Source: an uncultured Psychroflexus sp.
GTDB lineage: Bacteria > Bacteroidota > Bacteroidia > Flavobacteriales > Flavobacteriaceae
Direction of reading: 5' to 3'
DNA length: 64,000 nucleotides
Assembly (NCBI GenBank): GCA_913056525.1
Contig: CAJXLO010000001.1
Span: forward strand, 43,189 to 107,188
Below, piece by piece: positions 56,855 through 63,661 of the stretch; position 1 is the first letter of the stretch; every line of letters begins with the position of its first letter. Under the pieces are notes generated by a model that was not told the origin of the DNA, searched no databases, and saw nothing but the letters and a program-made list of their open reading frames with translations. A program made the translations under genes and the position numbers.

Positions 56855-57223
56855 ATGAAAAAAATATATTTATTACTTTTCCTAAGTTGCTTTGTTGGCC
56901 ATACGCAGGAAAAGGGTAAGCTTGATTTCAGCAGTAGGGTTATTGACTTTGGCGAGCTTAAAGAGGGTGCAAAAGCAGAACGATCACTGAGCTTTAAGAA
57001 CACTGGCGGAAAGCCCGTAAAGATCAAAAAAATAAGCAGTACAGGACATATCAATGTAGAAAGTTATCCGCAAAGCACTATTCAACCTGGTAAAACAGGA
57101 AATATCAAGATATCGTATAACACTAATAAGATAGGTCCCATTAGGCGAACTCTTACCGTCTATTCTAATGCTCAAAATTCTTTTGAGAGCATTAAGATCA
57201 AAGGTGTCGTTAAGAAGGATTAA
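56855..57223 (+). CDS. DUF1573 domain-containing protein
   Basis: IDFGELKEGAKAERSLSFKNTGGKPVKIKKISS; ATG at 56855 with signal peptide; TATATTTG -7-like box at 56829. Confidence 0.87.
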   Translation: MKKIYLLLFLSCFVGHTQEKGKLDFSSRVIDFGELKEGAKAERSLSFKNTGGKPVKIKKISSTGHINVESYPQSTIQPGKTGNIKISYNTNKIGPIRRTLTVYSNAQNSFESIKIKGVVKKD

Positions 57224-58554
57224 CGTAATCTATCTTTAAGCTTGAACTCAACATCCAGCAGCTTACCTTCGCGATTGATCTTCATATTGATAGACCTTCC
57301 TTCTTCACTGCTCAACATTTTTCTGATCTCCTTTAGATCATAGCTATTGATGGTTTTACCCTGTAATCTTACGATGATGTCTTTAGGTATAATGCCTGCT
57401 TGTTGAGCCGGTGAACCTTTTCTTACTTCAGCTACTTTGACCTTCTTTTTAATCTCGTAGATGGTCTTTAAGTTCTCTTGCTTATCAGCTGAACTATAAT
57501 CCTTATTACCAGATGTTCTTACACTAACCTTCACGGGAATCTTTTTTTCTATTATGCTCAGGCCGTCATATCTGAGTAGCAGCCCGCTTTTGTCATACTT
57601 GAAATCATCGTTTAGGGAAGAATTGCTCTTCAAGTAGACCCTGTTGTCCGGATAGTTTAGGAAAATACGGAAACGCCTTAGTATATTATTCCCTATGGAA
57701 CCAACCCTGTAGCTCATCAGTTCATCAAGATCGGGAAAGGAGACGTTAGCCTTCTCAAATATATAGTCCGCAAGTTCAAATCGGTCAACCTTACTTCTAT
57801 AACCAGTAATGATCCCGCGAAAACCAAATCCCAGATTATCCCTGAACCTGTTAGAAGGAAGCTTCATATCCTCTTTTTTATAGAGCCAAACCGCATCACT
57901 GGAACCCGTATCTATGAGGAAATTCCCCTGTTCCATTCCAAGTTCCTCATCCATATAAGAGGCCTGAATGTGAGGTTTGTTATTGATAAGGCTTATAGCA
58001 TGTTCATTAAAGAACCATAATGGTCTTTTGAACCTGGACGGCGTATAGAACTTCAGGTTCTTCTGTTGGTAATTGATTCTCAATATCAGGTCTTTTAGCA
58101 GGTCGTATCCTATCACCCCATTGATGACCGTTCCTATGCTGCTGGTAAGATAGTTCTCCTGGTCAAAAACCACGTAGATATCAGCCTTCGGATTGATCAC
58201 GTCCTTAATCCTTACCTGATTGCCTCTGGACCGATAAGCGCTGTAACTTTCTTTACCTTCCAAACCTTTGACCTTGATGTAGGCTGAATTCTTCAGCATT
58301 AGGGAATCCACTTCTTCAAAACTGAACAATATGGTCTTATCAACCCCAGAATCCAGAAGGAACTTCAGCTCAACGCCGTTTACTTCCACCGGTAGGATGA
58401 TCAGGTTATTAAAAAGCTCAAAGTCTACTTTCGTAGCTCGTTTATCATTCTGGATCCGATATTGACCTTCCTGACCTGAGACTGACAGGGGAATCAAGAA
58501 GAGCATCATTATCAACAGTACACGCATTGAATAAAAATAATGATTTTTATTCAT
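57220..58554 (-). CDS. retropepsin-like aspartyl protease with C-terminal PDZ domain
   Basis: VELKFLLDSGVDKTILF, GNFLIDTGSSDAVWLY, C-terminal VRKGSPAQQAGIIPKDIIVRLQGK. Confidence 0.9.
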   Translation of the reverse strand: MNKNHYFYSMRVLLIMMLFLIPLSVSGQEGQYRIQNDKRATKVDFELFNNLIILPVEVNGVELKFLLDSGVDKTILFSFEEVDSLMLKNSAYIKVKGLEGKESYSAYRSRGNQVRIKDVINPKADIYVVFDQENYLTSSIGTVINGVIGYDLLKDLILRINYQQKNLKFYTPSRFKRPLWFFNEHAISLINNKPHIQASYMDEELGMEQGNFLIDTGSSDAVWLYKKEDMKLPSNRFRDNLGFGFRGIITGYRSKVDRFELADYIFEKANVSFPDLDELMSYRVGSIGNNILRRFRIFLNYPDNRVYLKSNSSLNDDFKYDKSGLLLRYDGLSIIEKKIPVKVSVRTSGNKDYSSADKQENLKTIYEIKKKVKVAEVRKGSPAQQAGIIPKDIIVRLQGKTINSYDLKEIRKMLSSEEGRSINMKINREGKLLDVEFKLKDRLR

Positions 58555-58563
58555 TTTTGACTA

Positions 58564-59670
58564 TTACTGCTTCATATCTGGATTACTGTCCTTGCTTAAA
58601 ATCTTATGCTGGTGTTCTATGGATTCCTGATGGATCGCCTTGAGGAACTTGTTGACAAAATCTTCGCTCAAGTCATTGTTCTTCCCGGCGTGGACCATCT
58701 TGGCCAATATCTCATTCCATCTTTTGTTCTGTAATATCGCCACATTGTTCTTTTTCTTTAAAGCACCAATATCATCAGCGATCTTCATTCGCTTTCCTAA
58801 CTGATTGATGATCTGATGGTCAATAACATCGATCTTGGTCCTCATCGTGTTCAGTTTGTTCTTGAACTCGGCCGCTTCGCCATGTTCTTTTCTAATCCTG
58901 AGGTCCACGGTCATTTGCTCCAGTGATTTTGGCGTGATCTGTTGTTTAGGGTCGCTCCAGGCATTATCCGGATCCCGATGTGTCTCTACCATCATTCCGT
59001 CATAGTTCAGGTCTAAGGCGGTCTGACAAATATCAAAAATCATATCTCGACTACCTCCGATATGCGATGGATCCACAATAAGCGGTAGGTCCGGGAATTC
59101 GTTCTGAAGGTCTACGGCTAATTGCCATTCCGGATTATTGCGGTAGCGCGTCTTTTCATAGGTAGAAAAACCTCTATGGATCACTCCAAGGTTTTTGATA
59201 TCCGCTTTATGCAAGCGTTCAACTGCACCCAACCATAAGGCCAGATCAGGATTAACCGGGTTCTTGACCAGAACGGTCTTATCCGTTCCTTTTAGCGCAT
59301 CAGCAATGTCCTGAACAATGAAGGGACTTACCGTACTCCTGGCTCCTATCCACAGCATATCAATATCTGCTTCTAATGCCAATTCCACATGGGCTTTGTT
59401 TGCTACTTCCGTGGCGATCATCAGGCCAGTTTCCCGTTTGGCTCTTTTGAGCCACTCCAGTCCTATCTTGCCTACTCCTTCAAAATTCCCGGGTTTAGTT
59501 CGTGGTTTCCAGATGCCAGCGCGCATCACGGATGTGTCCGTTTCCTTTAATTGATGCGCTATCGATAGGACCTGATCCTCAGTTTCCGCGCTACAGGGTC
59601 CTGCGATGACCAGCGGATGTTCTAATTGAAAAGCGTTCAGCCAGTTCCTAAATTGTTCTTTATTTTCCAT
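58564..59670 (-). CDS. bifunctional 3-deoxy-7-phosphoheptulonate synthase / type II chorismate mutase
   Basis: VIAGPCSAETEDQVLSIA, MLWIGARSTVSPF, MRTKIDVIDHQIINQLGKRMKIADDIGALKK. Confidence 0.94.
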   Translation of the reverse strand: MENKEQFRNWLNAFQLEHPLVIAGPCSAETEDQVLSIAHQLKETDTSVMRAGIWKPRTKPGNFEGVGKIGLEWLKRAKRETGLMIATEVANKAHVELALEADIDMLWIGARSTVSPFIVQDIADALKGTDKTVLVKNPVNPDLALWLGAVERLHKADIKNLGVIHRGFSTYEKTRYRNNPEWQLAVDLQNEFPDLPLIVDPSHIGGSRDMIFDICQTALDLNYDGMMVETHRDPDNAWSDPKQQITPKSLEQMTVDLRIRKEHGEAAEFKNKLNTMRTKIDVIDHQIINQLGKRMKIADDIGALKKKNNVAILQNKRWNEILAKMVHAGKNNDLSEDFVNKFLKAIHQESIEHQHKILSKDSNPDMKQ

Positions 59671-59680
59671 TACTTGATGA

Positions 59681-60532
59681 TTATGAATTGATTCCCTTTA
59701 AAATTGCTTTTAATCTGTTCGTATTGTCCATTTCCTTGTATAATTCTTCAAATTCTTCTGCTTCCAGGGCTTTTTGAAAAGCTTGCAAGTTATCAATGTA
59801 ATTCGCTAATGCCTGCTTCACTTCTACTTTATTATCCTTGAATATGGACGTCCAGGTCTGCGGACTACTCTTGGCTAATCTTACCGTAGATGCAAAGCCA
59901 CTTCCCGCAAGATCGGATATGTCGCGTTCGTCCTTTTCCTTATCGATAACGGTCTTGCCGAGCATGAAGGAACTGATGTGCGATAGATGTGATACATAGG
60001 CGATATGCTGATCATGCTCCTTCGGGTCCATATAACGGATGTTCATCTGCATTTGATCGAAAAGGCCGATCGCGCGTTGTTGTAAACTGAAACGCGTTTT
60101 TTCTACCTCACTGATTATCATTGTTTTGTTGTTAAAAAGTCCTTCAAATGCGGCTTGCGGTCCTGAAAATTCCGTACCAGCGATAGGATGCGTGGCCAAG
60201 AATTGATCCCGCTTGGGATGATCGACTAGCTGGCTACAAATATTGGACTTTGTAGATCCCGTATCCAATACCAAAGTATTATCGCTTACTTTATCCAAGA
60301 GTTCACGTATCGTCTCTGCTGAATTATCAACGGGTATGCTCACTACGATAATATCGGCAGAGGAAACTAGCGCATCCTTCGCAATGTCATCAATGATACC
60401 TAGGCTTTTGGCTGTTTTCAAATGAGCGGGTTCAATATCCATCCCCAGAAAGTCGGCTTCGGGAATTAGCTTCCTCATACTCAGTAATAAAGAACCGCCG
60501 ATCAGTCCCAGTCCAATTCCTACTATTCTCAT
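59681..60532 (-). CDS. tyrA: prephenate dehydrogenase
   Basis: VGIGLGLIGGSLLLSMRK, VLDTGSTKSNIC, ATHPIAGTEFSGP. Confidence 0.94.
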   Translation of the reverse strand: MRIVGIGLGLIGGSLLLSMRKLIPEADFLGMDIEPAHLKTAKSLGIIDDIAKDALVSSADIIVVSIPVDNSAETIRELLDKVSDNTLVLDTGSTKSNICSQLVDHPKRDQFLATHPIAGTEFSGPQAAFEGLFNNKTMIISEVEKTRFSLQQRAIGLFDQMQMNIRYMDPKEHDQHIAYVSHLSHISSFMLGKTVIDKEKDERDISDLAGSGFASTVRLAKSSPQTWTSIFKDNKVEVKQALANYIDNLQAFQKALEAEEFEELYKEMDNTNRLKAILKGINS

Positions 60533-61686
60533 ACTTCAAATGCTTTGGTCCTTCCTAAACATTCCCTTATCTGGTTCGACCCGACGCAAAGGGAGAATCT
60601 CATATAAGCTTTTCCCTGATCGCCAAAGACCGTTCCTGGTGTTACGAACATGTCGTGCTCATGTAGCAATCGATCCGAAAGTTCTTCTGCCTTTATGTCA
60701 GCTTTTATTCTGGCCCAGACGAACAAACCCGATGTATTTTTATCGTAAGAAAGTCCAAGTTGATCACAGAGTTCCCATATCAATCTTCTGCGATGAGCAT
60801 ATTTTTCATCCAATTCACTGATCCAGGATGAAGATGCGGCCAAAGCTGCGGTGGCACCTTTCTGTATAGGATAGAACATACCGCTGTCCATATTTGATTT
60901 TACCTGAACAACACTCTTTATCAAATCTTCATCACCGCATAACATTCCTATACGCCAACCTGCCATATTGAAAGATTTACTGAGCGAATTCAACTCCAGT
61001 AACTGAACATTATGATCAACAAACCTTAACAAGCTAAATGGTTTATCTGACAGTATCAAGCTATAAGGATTATCATTGACAATTAGTATGTTATGTTGCT
61101 TTGCAAACTCGATAAGCGAGCGTATCATTTCTTCTTTTGCATTGGCTCCGGTAGGCATGTGCGGATAATTGATCCACATCAGCTTTGTTCTTGGCGTTAC
61201 CAGTGCAGCCAGTTGATCAAGGTCCGGTTGCCAATCATGCTTAGCCTTGAGGTCATAATTGACCGGTTTTGCCTGTACAAGCCTTGTAACCGCCGCATAT
61301 GTTGGATAACCAGGATCTGGAACCAATACTTCATCGCCAGGGTTCACGAATGCCATGGAAATGTGCATGATACCTTCTTTGCTTCCCATCAGCGGCAGTA
61401 TCTCTTTGTCCACGTCTAACGCAACTTCATAATGAGATGCATAGAACGACCGAATGCCTTCACGAAATTCACGAATGCCTGCGTATGGCTGATATTGATG
61501 CGCCTTGTCATCTGCCGTTGCGGCGATCATGCTTTTGATGACATCTGCTGGTGGCTGAATATCCGGCGAACCTACGCCAAGATTAATGATGGGCTTTCCG
61601 ATCGCTTTGAGGTGATCTACCTCCTTTAGCTTCCTGGAAAAGTAATATTCTCTGGTCTGCGCTAGTCTTTCAGCGGTCTGTATCAT
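60529..61686 (-). CDS. pyridoxal phosphate-dependent aminotransferase (class I/II)
   Basis: NLGVGSPDIQPP, PYAGIREFREGI, NSLSKSFNMAGWRIGMLCG. Confidence 0.94.
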   Translation of the reverse strand: MIQTAERLAQTREYYFSRKLKEVDHLKAIGKPIINLGVGSPDIQPPADVIKSMIAATADDKAHQYQPYAGIREFREGIRSFYASHYEVALDVDKEILPLMGSKEGIMHISMAFVNPGDEVLVPDPGYPTYAAVTRLVQAKPVNYDLKAKHDWQPDLDQLAALVTPRTKLMWINYPHMPTGANAKEEMIRSLIEFAKQHNILIVNDNPYSLILSDKPFSLLRFVDHNVQLLELNSLSKSFNMAGWRIGMLCGDEDLIKSVVQVKSNMDSGMFYPIQKGATAALAASSSWISELDEKYAHRRRLIWELCDQLGLSYDKNTSGLFVWARIKADIKAEELSDRLLHEHDMFVTPGTVFGDQGKAYMRFSLCVGSNQIRECLGRTKAFEV

Positions 61687-62504
61687 ACGGCAGCTTGTTT
61701 ATATATTCCTAGAATTTGAAATTTATGGCATTTTTCTTTTAAACTTTCCATGATGCTAATGATGTCCGTGTGCTTATCGAACAGCATATCTATAAAGAAA
61801 GCATATTTCCATTTAGACCATCTCAACGGAACAGATTGTATCTTGGTCATATTGATATGATGCTTTTCCAGTAGCATTAATGCTTTGTTTAAACTTCCTG
61901 GTTCATGCGGTAGCTCAAAACGAATGGAGGCCTTATCAGCATTTTCAAGCATCAATCCTGTTTTACAAAGCTTAACGAACCTTGTGGCGTTAAGCTGATG
62001 GTCTTGAACATGGCTTTTGATAACGGCCAGGTCAAAAAGTTGAGCAGTGCCATCAGGAACGAGTGCGGCGACCTGTCTCTTTCTTTCTGTTGCGATAAGC
62101 TTTGCCGGCAATGCGGTATCCGTATCTTCAATAAGCTTAATTTCAGGATGTTGCTCAAAAAAATGACCGCATTGTAACAAGGCCATTTGATGAGAACGTA
62201 CACTCTTGATGTCTGCCAACTCCTGACCTTTCAAGGCGACGAGATCATGCTTGATATCCCAATTGTATTCTGCGGTAATGACCAGCTTATGATGACTGAT
62301 CAAATCGTAGTTGGGAAGAAGGCTCCCAGCAATGGAATTTTCGATCGCCATGATACCAAAATCCACCTCATCCTTTACGATCGCTGTGACCAATTGATCA
62401 AAACTATCACAGCAGACAAACATGTTATCCTCGGCGATGAAGTGCTGAGCAACCTGATAATGATTAGATCCCTCAATTCCCTGAATAGCTATCTTGTTTT
62501 GCAT
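61683..62504 (-). CDS. pheA: prephenate dehydratase
   Basis: IAIQGIEGSNHYQVAQHF, GIMAIENSIAGSLLPNYDLI, ACT domain FELPHEPGSLNKALMLL. Confidence 0.94.
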   Translation of the reverse strand: MQNKIAIQGIEGSNHYQVAQHFIAEDNMFVCCDSFDQLVTAIVKDEVDFGIMAIENSIAGSLLPNYDLISHHKLVITAEYNWDIKHDLVALKGQELADIKSVRSHQMALLQCGHFFEQHPEIKLIEDTDTALPAKLIATERKRQVAALVPDGTAQLFDLAVIKSHVQDHQLNATRFVKLCKTGLMLENADKASIRFELPHEPGSLNKALMLLEKHHINMTKIQSVPLRWSKWKYAFFIDMLFDKHTDIISIMESLKEKCHKFQILGIYKQAAV

Positions 62505-62511
62505 ATCTAAC

Positions 62512-62541
62512 AAAAAAAAGTCCCGAAATATTTTCGGGACC
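62512..62541 (-). terminator. rho-independent terminator acting as the attenuator of the aromatic operon
   Basis: Minus strand GTCCCGAAA-ATA-TTTCGGGAC (9-bp perfect stem) followed by TTTTTTTT, ending 7 nt before the pheA ATG. Confidence 0.9.
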
Positions 62542-62568
62542 TTATTATTCTATAGTGTTTTATATCTA

Positions 62569-62640
62569 TCAACAACAGTCCCATTTGCCTATCGGATAAG
62601 CATAATAGAAACCGTTCCAAAAAAATACGTTCGTTTTCAT
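62569..62640 (-). CDS. aromatic leader peptide MKTNVFFWNGFYYAYPIGKWDCC
   Basis: 24-codon ORF (stop included) directly upstream of the terminator; 8/23 residues aromatic (FFW, F, YY, Y, W); absent from the ORF track because of its length. Confidence 0.85.
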   Translation of the reverse strand: MKTNVFFWNGFYYAYPIGKWDCC

Positions 62641-62652
62641 AATGAATCGGCT

Positions 62653-62681
62653 AAAATATAGAATTGGGTTCTTCTGGGCAA
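62653..62681 (-). promoter_or_regulatory. putative promoter of the aromatic operon (TTG-N18-TATATTTT)
   Basis: Minus strand TTG (62681-62679) and TATATTTT (62660-62653), close to the Bacteroidota TTG/TAnnTTTG consensus, 12 nt upstream of the leader ATG. Confidence 0.6.
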
Positions 62682-62995: not shown

Positions 62996-63661
62996 ATGAA
63001 TAATTTAAGAAACCAAATCCTGGAAGTCGATGAACTTTCATATAGAGCGTTTACCGAGGTTTTAAGGAACAGCACTTCCAAGCCCGGATTCCTTCACCTG
63101 ATGATAAAAGATTGCTTCAGCAGCTATCAATTGCGTCAGACCATGGTCTATTTGAAGAAGGCAATGGCAAAACAAACAGAAAGAAAATGGGGCAAAACGC
63201 TAAACTATCAATGGCTAAGCCGATTTGACCAACAAGAGAACACAAAGTTCCACCGAGATAATGCGGCTGACGAATCAGTGTTGATATTAGGTTATGAACC
63301 ATCCGCCATACCATCTCGCTTGTTCATCGCCGACCATGTAGCATTCGCAAGAGCGAATCAATTATCGCCTACGGAATTTTTTGATGAGTACAATCCCTTA
63401 CTGACCGACCTGGGAAAGTTACTAAAACAACATCTTACTGAAGTTAAGGGTTTCAAGCATGATCACTTTAATATACTGATCATCAACAACAGCGACTCTG
63501 ATCTAACCTATGGTGTGCTCCACAAAGCCCTTATGCTGGAACAAGACCCACAAAAACCCCGGATCGTTAATTCGATGATGCTTCACCTGGTTGATGCATC
63601 AAAAAGTGAAGTTTCTCTAGATGAACATCGCTTTTTGATTACGGATAAAGTAGATAAATAG
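62996..63661 (+). CDS. hypothetical protein
   Basis: 221-aa ORF with good coding character; FHRDNAADES segment (HxD-like) but no family recognised with certainty. Confidence 0.7.
   Translation: MNNLRNQILEVDELSYRAFTEVLRNSTSKPGFLHLMIKDCFSSYQLRQTMVYLKKAMAKQTERKWGKTLNYQWLSRFDQQENTKFHRDNAADESVLILGYEPSAIPSRLFIADHVAFARANQLSPTEFFDEYNPLLTDLGKLLKQHLTEVKGFKHDHFNILIINNSDSDLTYGVLHKALMLEQDPQKPRIVNSMMLHLVDASKSEVSLDEHRFLITDKVDK

Follow-up and report, generated by a model that had tools for sequence, protein, structure and literature searches.

Leader-peptide attenuation is a textbook mechanism, and the question raised by this locus is whether a short reading frame rich in aromatic codons, located in front of an aromatic amino-acid operon of an uncultured Psychroflexus sp., is the leader of such an attenuator and, if so, which amino acids are sensed. 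The window, i.e. the whole 64,000-nucleotide stretch of DNA that was analysed, carries the following leader and genes at this locus.

62569..62640, minus strand: leader peptide ORF MKTNVFFWNGFYYAYPIGKWDCC, stop codon TGA included (sequence; aromatic leader conserved in relatives)
61683..62504, minus strand: pheA, prephenate dehydratase (PDT domain PF00800; ACT domain weak)
60529..61686, minus strand: class I/II aminotransferase (domain match)
59681..60532, minus strand: tyrA, prephenate dehydrogenase (NF006307 above cut-off)
58564..59670, minus strand: DAHP synthase fused to type II chorismate mutase, DAHPS/CM (PF00793 and PF01817 above cut-offs)

The leader ORF (ATGAAAACGAAC...TGTTGTTGA) encodes 23 amino acids, eight of which are aromatic (Phe three times, Tyr three times and Trp twice), and was present once in a genome-wide search. 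Its coordinates and composition had been given exactly in a first-pass annotation of this DNA, which had also proposed the operon pheA–aminotransferase–tyrA–DAHPS/CM, with gene identities that are borne out by the domain matches. The four genes overlap or are closely spaced, and pheA is the first in the operon. A divergent ORF of 221 amino acids (62996-63661, plus strand), with no match in Pfam or NCBIfam, lies upstream of the leader. On the other side, a gene for a protein with aspartyl-protease and PDZ domains (57220-58554, minus strand) begins 9 nt after the DAHPS/CM gene, a position in which it was not found in the 19 operon loci compared.

Taken alone, the leader ORF is suggestive only, as 2000 dinucleotide shuffles of the 450 nt in front of pheA yielded 14 with an ATG ORF equally rich in aromatic residues. 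Phe and Tyr codons arise in AT-rich DNA, and the ORF could be a product of chance in an AT-rich intergenic region in which the terminator alone matters. However, an ORF with seven or more aromatic residues that make up no less than 33% of the peptide was found at 139 of 148 family loci compared with 2.4% of shuffles, the position of the leader relative to the promoter box and the terminator is conserved, and the fold switch described below requires the ORF; chance is hardly credible as an explanation. The first-pass annotation had staked its reading on an aromatic-rich ORF being conserved in close relatives, and it is this conservation, in 139 of 148 family loci, that settles the reality of the leader.

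In a sample of 70 pheA loci from Flavobacteriaceae, 69 of which had enough upstream sequence, an aromatic ATG leader precedes pheA at 66 of the 69 testable loci (for example MTKKYFWNGFYFYFFFKRGTGLL and MNTNNFTYYNWFYFFFSKRNETLYV), with a terminator approximately 18-41 nt past the leader stop in nearly all of them. The leader and terminator are also present in Arenibacter, Maribacter, Tenacibaculum, Flagellimonas, Zobellia, Winogradskyella, Capnocytophaga and others, and outside Flavobacteriaceae the same pair of leader and terminator was found in many Bacteroidia (leader, for example, MKRFNTYFWFYYYFFKALPGFERVAVCC). No aromatic leader was found in the f7 family loci (L214-L224), in which pheA is distantly related, in the f17 loci (L176-L181 and L212-L213), which belong to 0.6-Mb genomes retaining the operon, or at L013/L293 (genome G023), where pheA stands without the operon; these absences are apparent losses. 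In Flavobacterium amniphilum (L151) the leader seemingly starts with GTG (VKNFATYYNSFYFFFWSKTRGCYSIV) and escaped the ATG-only scan. Before the codon and arm-swap counts given below, 18 loci (spurious leader calls and duplicates) were removed by hand. In the FYFYFFF core, third-position variation is under an RNA hairpin constraint that is too strong for a clean codon-level test of selection.

A key part of the system, which was absent from the first-pass annotation, is an intrinsic terminator between the leader ORF and pheA. The terminator hairpin AAGGTCCCGAAAATATTTCGGGACTTTTTTTT (62543-62512) follows the ORF after 25 nt, and the pheA ATG (62504) lies 7 nt past the terminator T tract and 65 nt past the leader stop. 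Together with the ORF, it allows four segments to be delineated.

62596..62628, minus strand: segment 1, 5' half of the leader hairpin, spanning Phe, Trp and Tyr codons (predicted fold)
62562..62592, minus strand: segment 2, 3' half of the leader hairpin, also the 5' half of the antiterminator (fold and conserved pairing with segment 3)
62532..62543, minus strand: segment 3, terminator 5' arm AAGGTCCCGAAA, partner of segment 2 in the antiterminator or of segment 4 in the terminator (fold and scan)
62512..62528, minus strand: segment 4, terminator 3' arm TTTCGGGACTTT (62528-62517) and T tract (62519-62512) (fold and scan)

The terminator scan gave a stem of 12 pairs, five of them GC, at 62543-62517 followed by eight T, and folding of the window sequence gave -15.5 kcal/mol for this 3:4 hairpin and -19.3 kcal/mol for the 1:2 leader hairpin, in which the aromatic codons are set against the tail of the ORF. 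The terminator 3' arm is echoed in the final codons of the leader, which can therefore pair with the 5' arm. Consistent with this, the predicted fold of the window RNA depends on how much of the leader is exposed: RNA exposed from 62604 forms the antiterminator at -18.1 kcal/mol and RNA exposed from 62592 forms it at -13.1 kcal/mol, while in RNA exposed from 62568 the antiterminator is impossible and the terminator forms at -15.5 kcal/mol. The leader of the window diverges more than most of the surveyed leaders, and its 2:3 core, TGGGACT at 62583-62577 with the codon for Trp20 (W20), consists of just seven contiguous pairs, two of them G-U. When the full RNA is folded as a whole, the terminator is thermodynamically favoured over the antiterminator, and antitermination must therefore be kinetic, as is generally assumed for ribosome-mediated attenuation.

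All three attenuator pairings (1:2, 2:3 and 3:4) are present and conserved, and the 2:3 pairing could be followed across loci. When each leader tail was scored with its own terminator arm rather than with swapped arms, the mean pairing score was 17.87 versus 14.23 ± 0.23 within the family (n = 146) and 18.45 versus 14.26 ± 0.68 in other families (n = 20). At a fixed offset, the pairing held in 94% and 98% of cells in two peptide clades, compared with at most 63% in slid registers. Furthermore, an arm with CCC occurs with a tail with GGG, and an arm with CTC with a tail with GAG, at 117 of 120 scorable loci (59 and 58 concordant, respectively, and three discordant). After correction for phylogeny the covariation points in the right direction but is weak in number, with only six supported pairs, 4-5 of them concordant and none discordant (p = 0.06-0.125). 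In addition, the actual leaders fold more stably than sequences in which the peptide was kept but recoded with synonymous codons (mean z of -1.40 ± 0.08, n = 146). Sequence and predicted structure show the elements of the attenuator to be present, mutually exclusive and conserved.

The position of the aromatic codons relative to segment 2 was considered with a simple ribosome model, in which the ribosome conceals the RNA as far as 15 nt beyond the first nucleotide of the A-site codon. With the modelled ribosome at the median aromatic codon, the exposed RNA had the antiterminator as its minimum-free-energy fold at 138 of 139 loci, and with the ribosome at the stop codon at none of the 139; in the window, the paired fraction of segment 2 was 0.86 in the former case versus 0 in the latter. 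Most aromatic codons of the surveyed leaders are 12 nt or more 5' of segment 2: 822 of 880 for Phe, 496 of 555 for Tyr and 98 of 100 for Trp. The regulatory codons are thus placed as in an attenuator, in that a stall frees segment 2 and a ribosome at the stop codon covers it, assuming the 15-nt footprint.

Two further types of leader in the same genomes served as a control for specificity, which was carried out in relatives rather than in the genome of the window. The trpE genes are preceded by leaders with WWW (MKNLNVNTWWWSNLRKTS; L225-L246) and the hisG genes by leaders with HHH to HHHHHH (L255-L275), and both the trpE WWW type and the hisG His-run type are found in Psychroflexus curvus. In the pheA, trpE and hisG cases alike, the leader codons match the product of the leader's own operon. 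A C-terminal motif, QA[RKS], is common to most hisG leaders, and the two hisG leader loci tested gave no Rfam match at threshold. In the 80% complete assembly to which the window belongs, neither a full trpE (a weak pabB-like match only) nor hisG was found, and at this completeness auxotrophy is indistinguishable from missing sequence.

A different role for the ORF has to be weighed against these results: it might be coupled translationally to pheA or yield a small peptide with a function of its own, instead of working through termination of transcription. The pheA ATG is just 65 nt beyond the leader stop, and small leader ORFs of other bacteria act in cis or in trans (peTrpL; PMC7298713). However, an intrinsic terminator lies between the leader and pheA at nearly all loci, and the C-terminus of the peptide changes freely, with KRGTGLL, NETLYV, SRDF and KWDCC in different clades, while the RNA pairing is retained. 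Furthermore, the WWW and HHHH leaders of the other operons point to codon sensing, and coupling or a peptide function appears very improbable.

A classical ribosome-mediated transcription attenuator therefore remains the preferred reading, and we consider it highly probable, judging from sequence comparison and predicted folding, that the pheA–aminotransferase–tyrA–DAHPS/CM operon is controlled in this way. The same mechanism had been proposed in the first-pass annotation, and it is now strongly supported by the leader, the terminator, the antiterminator, the 1:2 hairpin, the codon placement, the conservation and the WWW and HHHH leaders. The stalling, termination and response to starvation that we infer would proceed as follows. 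Transcription would begin just 5' of the leader, and a ribosome would start on the leader ORF. When charged tRNA-Phe or tRNA-Tyr is scarce (and, to a lesser degree, tRNA-Trp), the ribosome would stall on the aromatic codons and mask segment 1; the freed segment 2 would then pair with the terminator 5' arm, and RNA polymerase would continue into pheA. When the aromatic tRNAs are charged, the ribosome would reach the stop codon and cover segment 2, so that the terminator would form. If the leader is left untranslated, the 1:2 hairpin would capture segment 2 and the terminator would likewise form.

A transcript start 5' of the leader is suggested by a promoter-like box that sits immediately 5' of the leader ATG in the window.

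62651..62681, minus strand: putative Bacteroidota-type promoter, TTG (62681-62679), 20 nt, TATTTTAG (62658-62651) (read from the sequence)

A motif TAnnTT[AT]G, which was derived from the observed TACTTTAGC and hence picked after inspection of the data, occurs within 45 nt 5' of the leader ATG at 127 of 150 family loci, compared with 5.7% of shuffles. Most of these boxes lie at -24 to -27 from the ATG, and at 89 of the 127 loci a TTG lies 14-28 nt further 5'. The conserved box suggests that the transcript probably begins upstream of the leader; a second promoter would hardly fit between the leader and pheA. An earlier form of the motif, TAnnTTT[AG], was found at 53 of 150 loci versus 27% in shuffles and barely exceeds background, and scanning with the sigma-70 consensus is unsuited to Bacteroidota promoters.

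As to which amino acids are sensed, Phe and Tyr codons are present in every leader (150 of 150 in the family and 20 of 20 outside it), and Tyr codons are found even at L286, where pheA and DAHPS/CM occur without tyrA close by. A Trp codon is present in 99 of 150 family leaders and in four of 20 outside Flavobacteriaceae, and is missing in the leaders of both Psychroflexus relatives (MTTHIYFYFNFYFADPAKRG and MTSRFYFYFNFYFAFKAKRG). The presence or absence of Trp changes state approximately 31 times on the pheA tree. Where present, Trp is usually a single residue that opens the aromatic run, at a site occupied by Phe or Tyr in other species, with Phe or Tyr occurring 3-6 times per leader; in the family leaders Trp makes up 3% of the residues. 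In the window, the W8 codon (62619-62617) is at the 5' foot of segment 1 and upstream of segment 2, and could act as such a Trp site. W20 is unable to sense Trp because segment 2 starts with its TGG, and a ribosome stalled there would favour termination.

The first-pass annotation had proposed that the pools of all three aromatic amino acids are integrated in one sensor. In such a device, a stall at Trp, Tyr or Phe would each block termination and any aromatic shortage would be answered. The positions of W8 and of 98 of 100 Trp codons upstream of segment 2, the Trp codons in 99 of 150 family leaders and the DAHP synthase within the operon at most loci are in favour of such a multivalent sensor. 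However, Trp is missing in one third of family leaders, in 16 of 20 outside and in both Psychroflexus relatives, it has changed approximately 31 times on the tree and is usually single against 3-6 Phe or Tyr codons, trpE carries its own WWW leader, and W20 lies inside segment 2; a full three-way sensor is conceivable, although we rate its chances as below even. The three-pool proposal is supported in part only. The best reading is that Phe and Tyr are the main inputs and that Trp is a labile, optional extra acting via W8. We would also suggest, tentatively and with more doubt than conviction, an ancient multivalent attenuator spread across the class Bacteroidia and gating the joint operon for Phe, Tyr and the common pathway, with OR logic over tRNA-Phe and tRNA-Tyr, plus tRNA-Trp in lineages with repeated gain or loss of one Trp codon, in which the inputs are re-tuned by single codon swaps and the RNA switch is fixed.

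Known RNA families were compared with the element. Rfam RF01859 (Phe_leader) scored 25 bits on the window (E = 0.083), below its gathering score of 55. This E. coli-type pheA/pheST leader shares with the present element the Phe-rich leader, the mutually exclusive antiterminator and terminator, the T tract and the location at pheA; however, the leaders described here are mixed Phe/Tyr (plus Trp), the operon adds tyrA and DAHPS/CM, and the sequence and phylum are different. Rfam RF01692 (Bacteroid-trp; gathering score 49), from the same phylum and mechanism class but with a Trp-only leader on trpE, did not list the window at any E value up to 10; it was matched by the trpE leaders of two relatives and by none of the pheA leaders tested, which gave no Rfam family at threshold.

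The thr and ilv leaders of E. coli are multivalent. A predicted attenuator leader with Phe-Tyr-Phe precedes aroF (DAHP synthase) in Corynebacterium glutamicum (PMC4046766). This is a precedent for mixed aromatic codons, although it is actinobacterial, concerns a single DAHPS gene and has a short run. Given these examples from E. coli and C. glutamicum, leaders that respond to several amino acids are not new. Within Flavobacteriaceae, a 2021 transcriptome of F. psychrophilum reported a structured 5' element at pheA, kept in other genera of the family and without an Rfam match, together with strong signs that operons for amino acids are controlled by leader-peptide attenuation (PMC9723704); in its main text that study names no leader peptide or codon content, describes no antiterminator and does not extend the element past the family. 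The pheA attenuator is a well conserved and ordinary kind of amino-acid sensor, and the additions made here are the family of peptides, the complete switch with its covariation, the spread across Bacteroidia and the labile nature of Trp.

The result is a precise model, amenable to testing, of how the synthesis of aromatic amino acids would be regulated across a large and little-studied phylum, built on an RNA element without an Rfam family and on leader ORFs that are easy to overlook. The codons that vary between lineages provide a natural series on how attenuators weigh several amino acids. In addition, Bacteroidota mostly do without Shine-Dalgarno sequences, and given this rarity the initiation of such leaders right after a short 5' end is a useful question.
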